Shown one piece after another: positions 5,009 through 57,032 of a DNA stretch of 64,000 nucleotides. Under the pieces are notes generated by a model, which ran no database searches, had not been told where the DNA came from, and saw nothing but the letters and a program-made list of their open reading frames with translations. Both the position numbers and the translations under genes were made by a program. Origin of the DNA: Selenomonas timonae (GTDB lineage: Bacteria; Bacillota; Negativicutes; Selenomonadales; Selenomonadaceae); assembly GCF_014250475.1 (NCBI RefSeq), contig NZ_CP060204.1, forward strand, positions 1-64,000, in the 5' to 3' direction. Positions within the stretch are counted from its first letter, which is position 1. Each line of letters begins with the position of its first letter.

Positions 5009-5785
5009 TTGCGAAAGGATACTCTTCTGCGCGGCTCTCTTGCCGCAGCCCTCACGGGGCTTTTCATTCTGACGATGACAAGCGGCGAGGCACGCCGCGT
5101 GCACGACCCGAATACATCGACAAAGATTCGTACGGAACGCGGTGCAGAGCCTGAGGAAAAACCTGATTTCCGCATGCGCATTGATGCACTCATCAAGGAA
5201 GTGGAGCCGGCAAACGCCGTGACAGCAGAAACGGCGAAACCGCAGCCGCTCTTCAGTGTCCCGCAGACGCTCTCGGAGTACGACACCGCCATCATCGGCA
5301 CGCCGCTCGCAAGTCAGGAACAATGCGTGAACTATCTCCTCAGTGTGAACCCCCACCCCGCGATCTCAGTCACGCCGCATGAACTCGTCTCCTACTACTA
5401 CGAGGAAGGCGCACGCGAGGGCATCCGGCCCGATGTTGCCTTTGCACAGGCGCTCAAGGAGACGGGATTCTTCCGCTACGGCGGCACGGTGACGCCCGAC
5501 CAGAACAACTACTGCGGACTCGGTACGACGAGTGCAACCGTCAAGGGGGCATACTTTGCCACCTCGCAGATCGGTGTACGCGCCCATATCCAACATCTGC
5601 TCGCCTATGCGTCGACCCGCGAGCCCATACAGCCTGTGGTCGACCCCAGATACAACCTTGTCCGAAACGTCTATGGCACGAGCACACTCGGTCACTGGCA
5701 GGATCTGAACGGTCGCTGGGCAGTCCCCGGCGACTCGTACGGTCAGAGCATCCTGTCGATGTTCCGCGCAATCCTGCGCAAGTAG
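5009..5785 (+). CDS. Glucosaminidase-domain (GH73-like) cell-wall hydrolase
   Basis: A 258-residue protein with a start-proximal hydrophobic segment (AAALTGLFILTM, about residues 12-24) that could be a signal peptide or anchor, a charged linker to about residue 95, and a C-terminal glucosaminidase domain. The catalytic Glu is seen in FAQALKETGFF, followed by the conserved NNYCGLGTT and the GVRAHIQHLLAYAS stretch. Such enzymes cut the glycan chains of peptidoglycan outside the inner membrane. The start is TTG at 5009, chosen because GGGAGG lies eight bases upstream and no better start is available. It precedes the ABC-F gene by 17 bases, so the two are probably co-transcribed. Confidence 0.87.
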   Translation: MRKDTLLRGSLAAALTGLFILTMTSGEARRVHDPNTSTKIRTERGAEPEEKPDFRMRIDALIKEVEPANAVTAETAKPQPLFSVPQTLSEYDTAIIGTPLASQEQCVNYLLSVNPHPAISVTPHELVSYYYEEGAREGIRPDVAFAQALKETGFFRYGGTVTPDQNNYCGLGTTSATVKGAYFATSQIGVRAHIQHLLAYASTREPIQPVVDPRYNLVRNVYGTSTLGHWQDLNGRWAVPGDSYGQSILSMFRAILRK

Positions 5786-7428: not shown

Positions 7429-7444
7429 AAGGGAGACGACATGG

Positions 7445-7596
7445 CTCCTAAGCGAACCCTAGTGGAGCAAGTGAGTAAAGCGGGCGTTTCGCCCCCTGCG
7501 GATTTCTTTCGTCCAAGCGAAGCGCGTTTAAGAAGTCCGCAGGTATTTAGGTGAATAAGCACGCGATCACTTGCGTAACTAAGCGTTCGCGTGGAG
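7445..7596 (+). ncRNA. Structured 152-base dispersed element, copy 1
   Basis: This intergenic element matches 55364-55515 without gaps. A central block (7491-7551) is identical and folds as a 14-pair hairpin: CCTGCGGATTTCTT at 7495-7508 pairs with AAGAAGTCCGCAGG at 7530-7543, with a 21-base loop. Around it lie nested stems: 7452-7457 with 7585-7590, 7467-7474 with 7567-7574, 7480-7485 with 7559-7564, and 7489-7493 with 7550-7554. Nine of these outer pairs differ from copy 2 by compensatory double changes. Wobble pairs are G-U only if the + strand is the RNA. A small AGCATG/CATGCT hairpin (7595-7612) plus T-run follows, then the ubiB ribosome site. The family is not recognised; it could be a structured RNA, a leader of ubiB, or an RNA-like mobile repeat. 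Confidence 0.6.
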
Positions 7597-7632
7597 CATG
7601 TCGGTTCATGCTTTTAGGCAGGAGGTGAGAGG

Positions 7633-9228
7633 ATGCTAGGTACGCTCTTGCAGGGCACGGAGAACAAGAACGCCGCGCTGCGTCTGCGCGAGATGGTCAC
7701 AGTTCTGCGCCGCCACGACATCGTACACGGTCTGACACCGGCCAAGCTGCGCGCCATCTTCGAGGATCTGGGGCCCACCTTTGTGAAGTTCGGGCAGATC
7801 ATGAGCATGCGTCCCGACTTTCTGCCGACAGAGTACTGCGACGAGCTAATGAAGCTACAGACGGGCGCACGCCCCCTCCCCTTCCCTGTGATCCTCTCCA
7901 TCGTGGAGCAGGAGTACAAGCGCGAGTGGAACAAGGTATTTCACACGATCGACAGCACACCGCTCGGCTCTGCAAGCATCGCGCAGGCACACCGCGCGAC
8001 GCTCACCTCGGGCGAGGATGTCGTCATCAAGGTGCAGCGCCCCGGCATCCACGAGATCATGCGCATGGATCTCACGCTCATGAAGCGTGCAGCAACCATC
8101 ATCCGCCTTGTCAGCCGCGATGATGTCGTCGACTTCCGCACGCTGATGGATGAGATGTGGAACATCGCAAAGCAGGAGATGGACTTCCTCATCGAGGCGG
8201 GACATATCGAGGAGTTCTCCCATCTGAACCGCGAAAATCCTTTCATCTCCTGCCCACGCGTCCTGCGCGACCTCTCCACCCAGTACATCCTCGTCATGGA
8301 GTACATTGACGGCATCCCCCTCGACCAGACCGACGCGCTCCACGCGGCGGGCGTCAACGTCACGCAGATCGGCCGCCGCCTCGGCGAGAACTACGCAAAG
8401 CAGATCATCGAGGACGGCTTCTTTCACGGCGACCCGCACCCAGGCAACATCCGCATCCGAAATGGCACGATTGTCTGGCTCGACCTCGGCATGATGGGAC
8501 GCCTCAGCAACCGCGACCGCATGGCTCTGCGCCGTGCAATTCTCGCGCTCGCGACCCACGACACCTTTGAGATGAAATCCGCCGTCCTTGCGCTCGGCAT
8601 TGTGCGCGGACGCATCAACCACGCACAGCTCTATCAGGACATCGACGTGATGATGGAGCAGTACGGCTCCCTCGATTTCAGCGATGTGCACATGGGCGTG
8701 CTGACGAATCAGATCCTCGGCATTCTGCGCATGCACCACATCGGCTGTCCGAGCGGACTCGCCATGTTCGCGCGCGGGGTTATGACCGTGGAGATTGTCA
8801 TGCGCCGCTGTGCGCCCGAAGTCAGCTTCCTCGAGATCTTTGCACGCAGCCTTTCGCTCGGCATTGTGCAGGGCATGACGTGGCGCGAGGGTCTGACGAA
8901 GGCGCGGCAGGAGGGCATCATGCTCCTGCGCAAGTCCGTCCAGATCCCCGAGCAGCTCGCCGACCTGCTCAAGATGACGATGAGCGGACAGGCAAAGTTG
9001 AACATCGACCTCACAGGCTCGGAGGAGCCCGTCCAACGCCTCGACAAGATGATCAACAAGCTCATCATCGCCCTTCTGTGCGCCGCGCTCCTCATTGCCT
9101 CGAGCACCATCTGCACAACGGATATGCAGCCACAGGTCGGCGGCATTCCCATCCTTGGCATCCTCGGCTATCTCATCGCGTTCATCCTGAGCATCCGTCT
9201 CATCTGGAACATTCATAAGGGAGTGTAG
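7633..9228 (+). CDS. ubiB: UbiB/ABC1-ADCK family atypical kinase
   Basis: A 531-residue protein of the UbiB family, needed for ubiquinone or menaquinone-type lipid metabolism in other bacteria. Seen in order: the KxGQ motif in LGPTFVKFGQIMSMRPDFLP, the alanine-rich loop in TPLGSASIAQAH, the Lys in VIKVQRPG, the catalytic-loop HGDPHPGN, and the metal-binding Asp in VWLDLGMMG. Two C-terminal membrane helices (about 475-495 and 505-525) place it at the inner membrane. The start ATG follows AGGAGGTGAG. It is tightly coupled to aroH (three bases apart). The structured element at 7445-7596 sits in its leader. The exact substrate of such proteins is uncertain. Confidence 0.92.
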   Translation: MLGTLLQGTENKNAALRLREMVTVLRRHDIVHGLTPAKLRAIFEDLGPTFVKFGQIMSMRPDFLPTEYCDELMKLQTGARPLPFPVILSIVEQEYKREWNKVFHTIDSTPLGSASIAQAHRATLTSGEDVVIKVQRPGIHEIMRMDLTLMKRAATIIRLVSRDDVVDFRTLMDEMWNIAKQEMDFLIEAGHIEEFSHLNRENPFISCPRVLRDLSTQYILVMEYIDGIPLDQTDALHAAGVNVTQIGRRLGENYAKQIIEDGFFHGDPHPGNIRIRNGTIVWLDLGMMGRLSNRDRMALRRAILALATHDTFEMKSAVLALGIVRGRINHAQLYQDIDVMMEQYGSLDFSDVHMGVLTNQILGILRMHHIGCPSGLAMFARGVMTVEIVMRRCAPEVSFLEIFARSLSLGIVQGMTWREGLTKARQEGIMLLRKSVQIPEQLADLLKMTMSGQAKLNIDLTGSEEPVQRLDKMINKLIIALLCAALLIASSTICTTDMQPQVGGIPILGILGYLIAFILSIRLIWNIHKGV

Positions 9229-10564: not shown

Positions 10565-11125
10565 ATGGCAAAATACAGTACAGAGTGTAAGCTGAAGGTT
10601 GTGCAGGAATATCTTGCAGGACACGGAGGCTATGAAACACTATCGAAGCTCTATCATGTTTCGCGCAAATCCATTGAGGAATGGGTAAAGGCTTATCAGG
10701 CATTCGGTGACGATGGACTCCGACGCTCCCGTGCACAGCAAACATACACTTTCGAATTTAAGTGTTCTGCGGTAGAATGTTATCTGTCAACAGAGGCATC
10801 CTATCAAGAGGTAGCTATCGCGTTTGGTCTGAACAATCCGTCCCTCCTTGCGCGTTGGACAAAGGAATATCGCAACGGCGGCGTAGATGCCCTAAGACCA
10901 AAACCGAAAGGAAGAGCCCCCGCTATGCCAAGAAAGAAAAAAGAGCAAACAAAAGACCTCCCACAAGACGAGACCGCGCAGCAACTCAAAGCCCTGCAGG
11001 ATGAGAATCTGAAACTGCGCATCGAGGTCGCCTATTTAAAAGAACTCAGGAGGCTGCGTCTGCAGGAAAAGATGCAGAGCAAAAGGCAAGGATCGTCCGC
11101 AGCCTCCGAGGAGAGTTTCAGTTGA
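10565..11125 (+). CDS. IS3-family transposase OrfA
   Basis: A 186-residue DNA-binding subunit with two helix-turn-helix segments (YETLSKLYHVSRKSIEEW at about 20-40 and YQEVAIAFGLNNPSLLARW at about 80-100), a basic KPKGRAPAMPRKKKE linker and a C-terminal leucine-rich coiled coil (about 135-165) as in IS150 OrfA. It recognises the element ends. The frame ends in a TGA that overlaps the OrfB reading frame. A T TTA AAA slippery heptamer lies 84 bases before its stop. Confidence 0.92.
   Translation: MAKYSTECKLKVVQEYLAGHGGYETLSKLYHVSRKSIEEWVKAYQAFGDDGLRRSRAQQTYTFEFKCSAVECYLSTEASYQEVAIAFGLNNPSLLARWTKEYRNGGVDALRPKPKGRAPAMPRKKKEQTKDLPQDETAQQLKALQDENLKLRIEVAYLKELRRLRLQEKMQSKRQGSSAASEESFS
11035..11041 (+). 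promoter_or_regulatory. Probable -1 ribosomal frameshift heptamer
   Basis: T TTA AAA is in the correct X XXY YYZ register with respect to OrfA (codons TAT TTA AAA GAA). OrfB is in the -1 frame, and that frame is open from 11005 onward. The peptide read after slippage runs through EQKARIVRSLRGEF into OrfB, which resembles IS150-type fusion proteins. The role is inferred from position and register. Confidence 0.55.
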
Positions 11126-55330: not shown

Positions 55331-55363
55331 TCTCTCTTCTCCCTGTATCATTGTCATGCGATA

Positions 55364-55515
55364 CTCCTAAGCAAACCCTAGTGAAGCAAACGGGAAAAGT
55401 ACACGTTCTGCCCCCTGCGGATTTCTTTCGTCCAAGCGAAGCGCGTTTAAGAAGTCCGCAGGTATTTAGGCAGATAAGTGTACGACCGTTTGCGTAACGA
55501 GGTGTTTGCGAGGAG
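55364..55515 (+). ncRNA. Structured 152-base dispersed element, copy 2
   Basis: Same length and fold as 7445-7596, here antisense to the galactose operon, between the galT and repressor genes. Stems: 55371-55376 with 55504-55509, 55386-55393 with 55486-55493, 55399-55404 with 55478-55483, 55408-55412 with 55469-55473, and the identical core hairpin (55414-55427 with 55449-55462). Nine pairs are changed on both sides relative to copy 1, and a GA mismatch in copy 1 is a CG pair here. Its own promoter or terminator is not evident. If only the minus strand is transcribed here it would still form hairpins, but with CA mismatches at the wobble positions. Confidence 0.6.
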
Positions 55516-55526
55516 TACGCAGACAT

Positions 55527-57032
55527 CTACACGCCCGCTATGCTTTCAATCCAGCGGTCGAACGCCGCCATCCCTGCCGCGTCACGCTTGAACACCCCCG
55601 CGTGCGTGAGCACCTCCAGGAACACCTTTCCGATCTCGTCGCGCAGAATCCCATCGACATTCCCCTCCGTGACCGACAGATGCGCCGCACGTACCGAGCG
55701 ATACCAGTCCGCATGTTTTTCGATGTCCGCAATTCCCGCAATGTCCGCCGTTCCCCGCAGCAGCTCCGCACGGATCTGCTCCATCTCCGATTTGAGACGC
55801 GCGGGCAGGATCGCCAGCCCCAGCACTTCGATCAGGCCGATGTTCTCCTTCTTGATGTGATGCACCTCCGCGTGCGGGTGGAACAGCCCGAGCGGATGCT
55901 CCGCCGTCGTGCGGTTGTTGCGGAACACGAGATCGAACTCATAGTCCGCGCCGCGCCGCCGTGCAATCGGCGTGATCGTATTGTGCGGCGCATCCGTCTC
56001 CGCAAGAATGTCCGCGGAGGCATCGCTGTACGTGCGCCATGCCGTGAGAATCGCCGTCGCGAGGTCAATAAGTGCCCCCTTGTCGGAGGACGTGAGCCGC
56101 AGCGTCGACATCGGCCACTTCACACGCCCCGCACGCACCTGTGGATAGTTCGCAAAGCGATATTCCTGCTCCACCGCCGCGCGCTCCATCGCAAATGTAT
56201 AACGCCCGCCCTGATAGTGGTCATGCGAGAGGATCGAGCCACCGACAATCGGAAGGTCTGCATTTGACCCCGCGAAATAGTGCGGGAAGATCTCAAGAAA
56301 TGCCGTAAGATTCTCGAACGTCTCGCGCGAAATCACCATCGGCACATGATCGCTGTTCAGTACAATGCAGTGCTCGTTGTAGTAGGTATAGGGGGAATAC
56401 TGTAAAAACCACGGATGTCCCGCGAGATCCAGAGGAATGAGACGATGCGTCTCACGTGCGGGATGGTTCACACGCCCCGCATAGCCCTCGTTCTCGCGGC
56501 AGAGCAGACACTTCGGGTAGCCTGCCGCCTTCGCGAGCTTTGCCTTGGCAATGTCACGCGGATCCTTCTCCGGCTTCGAGAGGTTGATCGTCACGTCGAG
56601 ATCCCCGAACTCCGTCGCCGTTTTCCACGCGATATTCTTGTCGATGCGCGCCTTGCGGATGTAGTTCGAGGCGATGCTCAGCGCATAGTAGTAGTCCGTT
56701 GCCTCGCGTGGGGATGTCTCATAGCGCGTGTGGAACTCGTTCACAACCTCGGACGGACGCGGCATCACACAGTCCATGATGCGCGTATCGAAGAGGTCGC
56801 GCTCGTCCGTCGTCCCCTCGATCAGCCCTTTCTCCGCAGCGTAGTCGAGCATACACTCCAGAATCGGCGTTGCCGTTTCAAGCGTTTCATCCACCTCTTC
56901 GGGCACATATTCCTCAACGTGCAGCACATCAAGGAGGCGGTTCGCCGCATAGACCTCGTCCTCGGGCGCAATCAGCCCCTTTTGACGCGCAAAGTGCAGG
57001 AGACGGCTGATTTCATGCTGAATGTCACACAT
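55527..57032 (-). CDS. galT: Galactose-1-phosphate uridylyltransferase, class 2
   Basis: A 501-residue GalT of the Firmicutes class, longer than the E. coli type. It exchanges galactose-1-phosphate and UDP-glucose. Seen: MPRPSEVVNEFHTRYE, LNSDHVPMVISRETFENL, and the active site GGSILSHDHYQGGRYTFAM with the HDHYQ motif. It follows galE by 12 bases. The downstream 152-base element separates it from the repressor gene. Confidence 0.95.
   Translation of the reverse strand: MCDIQHEISRLLHFARQKGLIAPEDEVYAANRLLDVLHVEEYVPEEVDETLETATPILECMLDYAAEKGLIEGTTDERDLFDTRIMDCVMPRPSEVVNEFHTRYETSPREATDYYYALSIASNYIRKARIDKNIAWKTATEFGDLDVTINLSKPEKDPRDIAKAKLAKAAGYPKCLLCRENEGYAGRVNHPARETHRLIPLDLAGHPWFLQYSPYTYYNEHCIVLNSDHVPMVISRETFENLTAFLEIFPHYFAGSNADLPIVGGSILSHDHYQGGRYTFAMERAAVEQEYRFANYPQVRAGRVKWPMSTLRLTSSDKGALIDLATAILTAWRTYSDASADILAETDAPHNTITPIARRRGADYEFDLVFRNNRTTAEHPLGLFHPHAEVHHIKKENIGLIEVLGLAILPARLKSEMEQIRAELLRGTADIAGIADIEKHADWYRSVRAAHLSVTEGNVDGILRDEIGKVFLEVLTHAGVFKRDAAGMAAFDRWIESIAGV

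Follow-up and report, generated by a model that had tools for sequence, protein, structure and literature searches.

What kind of selection, if any, maintains an intergenic sequence whose two copies differ mainly by changes that keep its predicted pairs intact? This question is raised by two loci in the first 64,000 nucleotides of the Selenomonas timonae chromosome (GCF_014250475.1, NZ_CP060204.1 positions 1-64,000, hereafter the window; the genome comprises 2.35 Mb on one contig). An earlier note made from the letters of this stretch had described a 152-base element with nine compensatory base-pair changes between its two copies and had taken this to indicate selection on a folded molecule of a family that it did not recognise. 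Based on genomes of the genus and family, we hold with moderate confidence that the element is a MITE-derived intergenic repeat of Selenomonadaceae with an imperfect hairpin core of ~150 bases, the plus-strand fold of which is, as judged from sequence, probably under selection, most likely as an RNA bound in trans at its loops.

Two window copies of an imperfect hairpin

The alignment of 7445-7596 with 55364-55515 is indeed free of gaps and contains 27 differences. All nine of the pairs listed in the earlier note change on both sides and retain Watson-Crick pairing. A tenth pair, 39-117, is likewise hit twice, an unpaired G/A being replaced by C-G between the two copies. As had been claimed, the differences lie mostly within stems (24 of 27 in a stem of either predicted fold, with positions 21, 32 and 140 outside) and the central hairpin with its 21-base loop is identical, positions 47-107 being without differences. 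When 27 differences are placed randomly, doubly hit pairs average 1.7 and reach a maximum of 7 in 20,000 trials, compared to the 10 observed. In addition, the predicted folds of the two copies are far more stable than those of dinucleotide shuffles, with z values of -6.7 and -8.9 for 163-base stretches.

The features of both copies are given below. Bit scores refer to covariance model R1, which was built from 53 copies with both window copies among them, making these the scores of training members; neighbouring genes were called by home-made ORF scoring and Pfam.

7440..7601, plus strand: copy 1, 162 model positions (core and inner part of the outer stem), R1 187.6 bits
5803-7428 and 7633-9228: neighbours of copy 1, an ABC-F type gene and an ABC1-kinase gene, copy 1 being sense to both
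7455..7467, plus strand: copy 1, conserved 5' segment AACCCTAGTGGAG, TAGTG invariant in the 53-copy alignment
7467..7474, plus strand: copy 1, covarying stem (helix 3), 5' side, partner 7567-7574
7495..7508, plus strand: copy 1, apical stem, 5' side, partner 7530-7543, with covariation in helix 7 and its neighbours across 87 distinct copies
7509..7529, plus strand: copy 1, apical loop of 21 bases with a small inner hairpin within, the portion of the element that is retained in other genera
7530..7543, plus strand: copy 1, apical stem, 3' side, from the predicted fold
7544..7549, plus strand: copy 1, asymmetric internal loop TATTTA, TATTT invariant in the 53-copy alignment
7567..7574, plus strand: copy 1, covarying stem (helix 3), 3' side
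55359..55520, plus strand: copy 2, R1 186.2 bits
54317-55330 and 55527-57032, both minus strand: neighbours of copy 2, a LacI-type gene and a galT-like gene, copy 2 being antisense to both
55428..55448, plus strand: copy 2, apical loop, identical to that of copy 1
55463..55468, plus strand: copy 2, asymmetric internal loop TATTTA, from the predicted fold

Elsewhere in the window, positions 10565-11125 hold an open frame that we take to be like the first part of an IS3-type transposase.

Family distribution and covariation of the fold

The picture of two copies did not survive a wider search, which revealed a dispersed repeat with about 27 copies in its own genome (blastn lists 34 rows at E<=10; 30 pass E<1e-4, three of which are the second parts of copies that are interrupted or shortened). 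Among the copies are the short L027, which is without the central hairpin, the half copy L029 and others that are interrupted by different repeats. Along G000, no copy passing E 1e-4 lies in the last third of the chromosome (1.51-2.35 Mb), and 0.56-1.0 Mb is dense. Within the genus, 12 of 14 genomes carry the repeat with 10 to 51 match rows each, and G001 and G010 gave no matches in blastn or covariance-model searches. A covariance-model search of the kind proposed in the earlier note gave, at E<=0.01, matches in 39 of 151 genomes of the family (12 from the genus) and in 10 of 30 genera. True copies read on the wrong strand still score E 2e-5 to 0.5 in such a search, so that weak hits in other genera (E 1e-4 to 1e-2) may be any palindrome and are unsafe by themselves; for this reason, kinship across genera is taken from the shared loop. 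Of 380 Negativicutes genomes, 22 contain the 22-base loop pattern exactly, and every one of them belongs to the window's own family. Among the matches listed by a pattern scan of genome contigs are also two Bacteroidaceae-labelled MAG contigs (L171 about position 5120, L201 about 4673) with the same apical loop and a similar hairpin; mis-binning of L201 is not evident because one ~500-base region alone in L201:1-4400 matches Selenomonadaceae, at about 70% identity. In G012, copies of the element stand in tandem, little over 190-235 bases apart (L122 1160-1557, L123 1806-2162).

The earlier note's failure to recognise the family has a simple counterpart in the databases, in that no described Rfam family matches. 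At the gathering score, Rfam release 15 has 0 matches in the 64-kb window, a search around copy 1 at E<=10 returns noise alone and the element in 17 other-genus loci has no match, for which reasons a known Rfam family, including skipping-rope RNA as a candidate, was rejected. A phage or plasmid origin was likewise rejected, there being no blastn match in phage or plasmid records and no exact loop match in viral contigs.

Selection on a fold should be visible across many copies, and homologues whose arms vary without keeping pairing had been named in the earlier note as evidence against a structured molecule. We found the reverse. In an alignment of 53 copies, 25 of 50 consensus pairs have double changes, and unpaired segments such as TAGTG and GTATTT are invariant. 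Overall, conservation is only a little higher in unpaired columns than in paired ones (mean entropy 0.46 vs 0.52). Our alignments are without the interrupted copies L014, L019, L022 and L024, and alignment A1 is also without L025, L027 and L029. A model-fitted alignment of 100 matches, 87 of them distinct, leans to structure by construction, and over these 87 copies 97.2% of cells are paired, compared to 87.8% in shuffles and 27-41% when partners are slid by 1-3 columns. Doubly changed cells number 488 vs 148 in shuffles and doubly changed pairs 27 vs 16.6. None of 500 shuffles attains any of five covariation measures; the shuffles ignore relatedness between copies, which the slid control retains.

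Beyond the genus, the stems themselves are exchanged. At 18 other-genus loci, predicted folds of -49 to -110 kcal/mol present the same or nearly the same apical loop on different stems in which pairing is retained. Among 155 copies anchored on the loop, 33 clearly belong to other types. A permissive motif test, run with no control, finds the 5' internal-loop motif (e.g. GTTAAGA) in 30 of the 33, the 3' motif (e.g. TTTAGC) in 28 and both in 26. To our mind, this replacement of whole stems with retention of the loops is the strongest sign that the fold is selected. The fold itself thus seems to matter, with paired letters changing and the hairpin being kept, even though the repeat spreads like a mobile element. 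As for the earlier note, its two-copy view of the locus fell and its proposal of selection on a folded molecule stands, well supported by the additional copies, by stem replacement across genera and by the strand asymmetry described below.

Paired changes could also be purely mutational if the arms of a palindrome correct each other via template switching, with no selection on the fold at all. The great length of the arms suits such a process, as do outer stems that vary between copies yet pair. Correction between arms would, however, erase asymmetric internal loops and gives no reason to expect more G-U than A-C on one strand; because the internal loops are conserved and such an excess is seen, we judge this explanation very unlikely and continue with selection on the fold.

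Ends, mobility and turnover of copies

One clean empty site bears on how the repeat came to be dispersed. The element, with its core of about 150 bases, has no transposase gene. At position 755424, a copy present in G000 and G013 is matched by an uninterrupted empty site in G005, G012, G008 and G002. The insertion, which measures <400 bases in full with a nested second repeat included, has the inverted ends GGCACTATGATAAAAGTTACGGA and, on the other strand, GGGGCTATGGCAACTGTTACGGA, and the 8 bp TACCACAT are doubled around it. Of five sites compared across genomes, this is the one at which a duplication resolves, the four others not resolving; none resolves at seven absent-copy sites in G009 either. 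At the L042 site, which is filled in 1 of 14 genomes, ACTAAAGG flanks a larger insert on both sides and is a second possible 8-bp duplication, but the ends of the insert are eroded.

A target duplication of 8 bp is usual for ISL3 insertion sequences, and ends similar to those of the 755424 insertion (GGCTCTTTGTCAATAGTTACGGA) adjoin ISL3-type transposase genes in the genus (L124, L125, L126, L131). Such genes (PF01610) are found in 6 of 14 genus genomes, all six of them repeat carriers, and 6 of the 12 carriers are without a PF01610 match. With a 23-bp end consensus taken from L131, whose own perfect score is consequently meaningless, a score of 13 of 19 matches is attained by 14 of 108 arms and by 0 of 108 shuffled arms; most arms fall short of it. 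A match to a known transposon end, which the earlier note had held to speak against a structured RNA, is therefore present in part, in that transposon-like inverted ends enclose a minority of the copies. Because clear ends are confined to this minority and the second end of the ISL3 insertion sequences was not found, mobilisation by ISL3 is something that we infer: the copies would move, or would once have moved, through the action of an ISL3-type transposase on their outer inverted ends. In the S. ruminantium group, hairpins are found within larger inverted composites with different ends, as if the module rode on different transposons. Several loci of this group (L161, L162, L187, L220 and similar) have two different hairpins in opposite orientation within a composite ending in a AATTGCAGTTTATAGG-like sequence.

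Two other routes of dispersal were considered. RAYT/IS200-type mobilisation was set aside since the presence of a Y1 transposase does not track the repeat: PF01797 is found in 7 of 14 genus genomes including both of those without the element, and is absent from G002, G008 and G012 despite their 41-51 element match rows. Outer stems that look locus-specific had prompted the idea of insertion into pre-existing hairpins, which was rejected because element-less sites are not palindromic, as seen at the L042 site and in G004 vs G003 at 755424, where G004 may be a deletion remnant. Given these empty sites and a single outer-stem theme shared by rumen copies, we take the outer stem to be part of the element.

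The element is itself a site of insertion. L022 (1601-1770), L024, L074, L019 and L108 contain a second repeat, whose ends resemble GGAATCAC...GTGATTCC or GGAATCGCTGATAAA...TTTATCAGTGCTTCC; it lies at or beside the conserved TATTTA loop, as if insertion there were favoured. In several genomes, at L014, L195, L209, L215 and L266, one arm of the element is broken up or supplanted by yet another repeat (GGTCAACGTCATCCAATCACACTTCG...). Separately, an inverted, GC-rich sequence, CCCCCTCCCCCGTTGCGACGGGGGAGG, is found repeatedly in intergenic stretches of G009 and G012 (L104 and L106).

Copies come and go, and some stay. In a comparison that covers about 0.7 of the 2.4 Mb of G009, nine own copies have both flanks on one stretch of that genome; L017 is present there whole, L025 survives as a deletion remnant and the other seven are missing. 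Such high turnover is evidence against a stable host role. Core identity is 97.9-100% in 5 of 23 same-site pairs between genomes and 55-92% in the other 18, L184/L283 and L231/L285 being counted in this comparison only as their cores are of unequal length. The core of L017 has 0 of 141 differences from its G009 counterpart, compared to 17% and 9% at flanking third codon positions, and its outer stem has two double substitutions (GCTCT/AGAGC to ACCCT/AGGGT). Similarly, the cores of L031/L032 differ at 1 of 142 positions vs 32-34% at neighbouring third codon positions, and those of L037/L056 at 1 of 142 vs 25% and 12%. L038/L040 (0 of 142) is uninformative because the genes are >99% alike. One site is occupied across genera (L058, L345, L151). 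Other same-site pairs are chimeric and share one side alone (L017/L193, L044/L213); together with the pairs of low identity, these suggest replacement through recombination with other copies. Concerted evolution between copies could also have caused some of the core likeness, and the core of L017, which is unlike the others in the 53-copy alignment, argues against it at L017 only.

The folded strand, its possible role and known systems

If the folded plus strand is selected, G-U pairs should be tolerated more than A-C mismatches. At pairs that are mostly Watson-Crick, we counted 144 G-U vs 54 A-C cells. Rare one-sided changes lead to G-U in 77 cases and to A-C in 34, with ratios of 20:8 in ++ gene contexts, 40:24 in -- contexts and 11:1 in convergent ones; as the direction is the same in ++ and -- contexts, the bias tracks the element and not the genes. 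The excess is absent from the outermost helix (7:9). In line with this asymmetry, the plus strand has the better predicted fold in 105 of 122 copies of the genus type and in 30 of the 33 others, and in 81 of 122 and 29 of 33 when the apical part is removed, although the copies are related and these counts are not independent. Across the 18 other-genus loci, the plus strand folds better in 15, or in 14 when stems only are considered; the loop was located here by a fuzzy match with 5 errors at every locus, and the resulting orientation agrees with the other loop comparisons. The minus strand folds better at L149, L151 and L157, and one of seven genus means (g30) goes against the plus-strand preference.

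On its own, this preference would fit RNA and single-stranded DNA equally. Hairpins in single-stranded DNA serve as enzyme sites in other systems, for example REPs for RAYTs and attC for the integron integrase, and the folded plus strand could be the site of a DNA-processing enzyme, with selection acting on mobility or recombination. The mobility of the family, a strand preference that is independent of the genes, and the chimeric pairs L017/L193 and L044/L213, which suggest recombination at the element, would all follow. We nonetheless regard this explanation as unlikely, given that Y1 transposases do not track the family and that the cores of some copies have persisted at their sites despite long divergence, which is unexpected under mobility alone.

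Placement relative to genes bears on what an RNA form might do. No copy lies inside a called gene among the 113 tested by home-made ORF scoring, a set to which a loose motif test admitted some other-genus copies and in which 9 are without a called neighbour on one side. The 104 with a called gene on both sides comprise 47 --, 33 ++, 19 convergent and 5 divergent cases. With element ends approximated from the loop, 36 of the 47 -- copies and 16 of the 33 ++ copies lie <=35 bases from the stop codon of the upstream gene. A promoter scan found no plus-strand promoter-like site at either window copy.

REPs stand close behind stop codons too, and the element might by analogy be a two-way hairpin that terminates the transcript of the gene before it, or makes that transcript more stable, in either reading direction. 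The proximity to stop codons and the scarcity of divergent contexts (5 of 104) are what such an mRNA 3' element predicts, both orientations are found, and a scan marks one weak, terminator-like plus-strand site inside each window copy (7488-7502, 55407-55421). In -- contexts, however, where the mRNA is the minus strand, G-U still exceeds A-C by 40 to 24, and a T-rich run (6 of 8) follows the hairpin in just 7 of 49 copies on the plus strand and in 6 of 49 on the minus strand. The rarity of these runs led us to reject an intrinsic terminator, and we consider a REP-like 3' element improbable.

Our preferred reading remains that of a repeat of MITE origin whose plus-strand fold is selected. Under this model, insertion would be tolerated behind stop codons and away from promoters, and the core would be kept since its plus strand, most likely as RNA, may be bound at the apical and internal loops by a putative trans factor. 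Such a core could function at the ends of mRNAs or, alternatively, as a small RNA. More speculatively, the repeat could represent a new class of mobile structured RNA that would combine fixed apical and internal loops with replaceable stems, ride on different DNA transposons, be read from its own strand and be served by a dedicated protein of the host or element; we put this forward tentatively, as a possibility more doubtful than the preferred reading itself. MITE-like bacterial palindromes are often treated as inert, and here stems are rewritten with pairing kept while loops stay fixed across genera. Whether such repeats yield functional RNA is a directly testable question in oral and rumen bacteria, and the alignment and model are ready should the family come to be entered in an RNA family database.

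A literature search of open-licence PMC papers found none on such a repeat in Selenomonas or Negativicutes. Compared to ISL3-family insertion sequences, the repeat is alike in having a similar 23-bp end beside transposase genes and, at one copy, an 8-bp duplication; it differs in that the second end was not found and that the S. ruminantium group has the module within composites with other inverted ends. One survey of repeated stem-loops reports 92 families from 40 genomes (PMC2267715). REP/BIME sequences, as outlined in PMC3733652, are many-copy palindromes outside genes and are alike in this placement, but REPs differ in size and partner, being 20-40 bp with a GTAG tag at one end and tied to RAYTs, compared to a core of about 150 bases here. 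No GTAG or CGTC tag was seen on inspection of the aligned element ends. QMITE1 and QMITE2 of Coxiella burnetii are presented in PMC5896051 as MITE families of about 50 copies that yield small RNAs, QMITE2 being 150-190 bp long with 7-11 nt direct repeats and located mainly in 3' untranslated and intergenic regions; the likeness is one of broad outline, and QMITE2 contains a GTAG REP, a tag not seen in the Selenomonas repeat. The bcr1-bcr18 repeats of the Bacillus cereus group are, as described in PMC3446304, dispersed and intergenic, some of them MITE-like, and located in UTRs or between operon genes, with conserved secondary structure stated for bcr10 and bcr18. In being dispersed, intergenic, MITE-like and structured, they too are alike in broad outline. 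Both the QMITE and the bcr comparisons are by description; set against the bcr repeats, its host group, its apical loop and the replacement of its stems across genera are its own.
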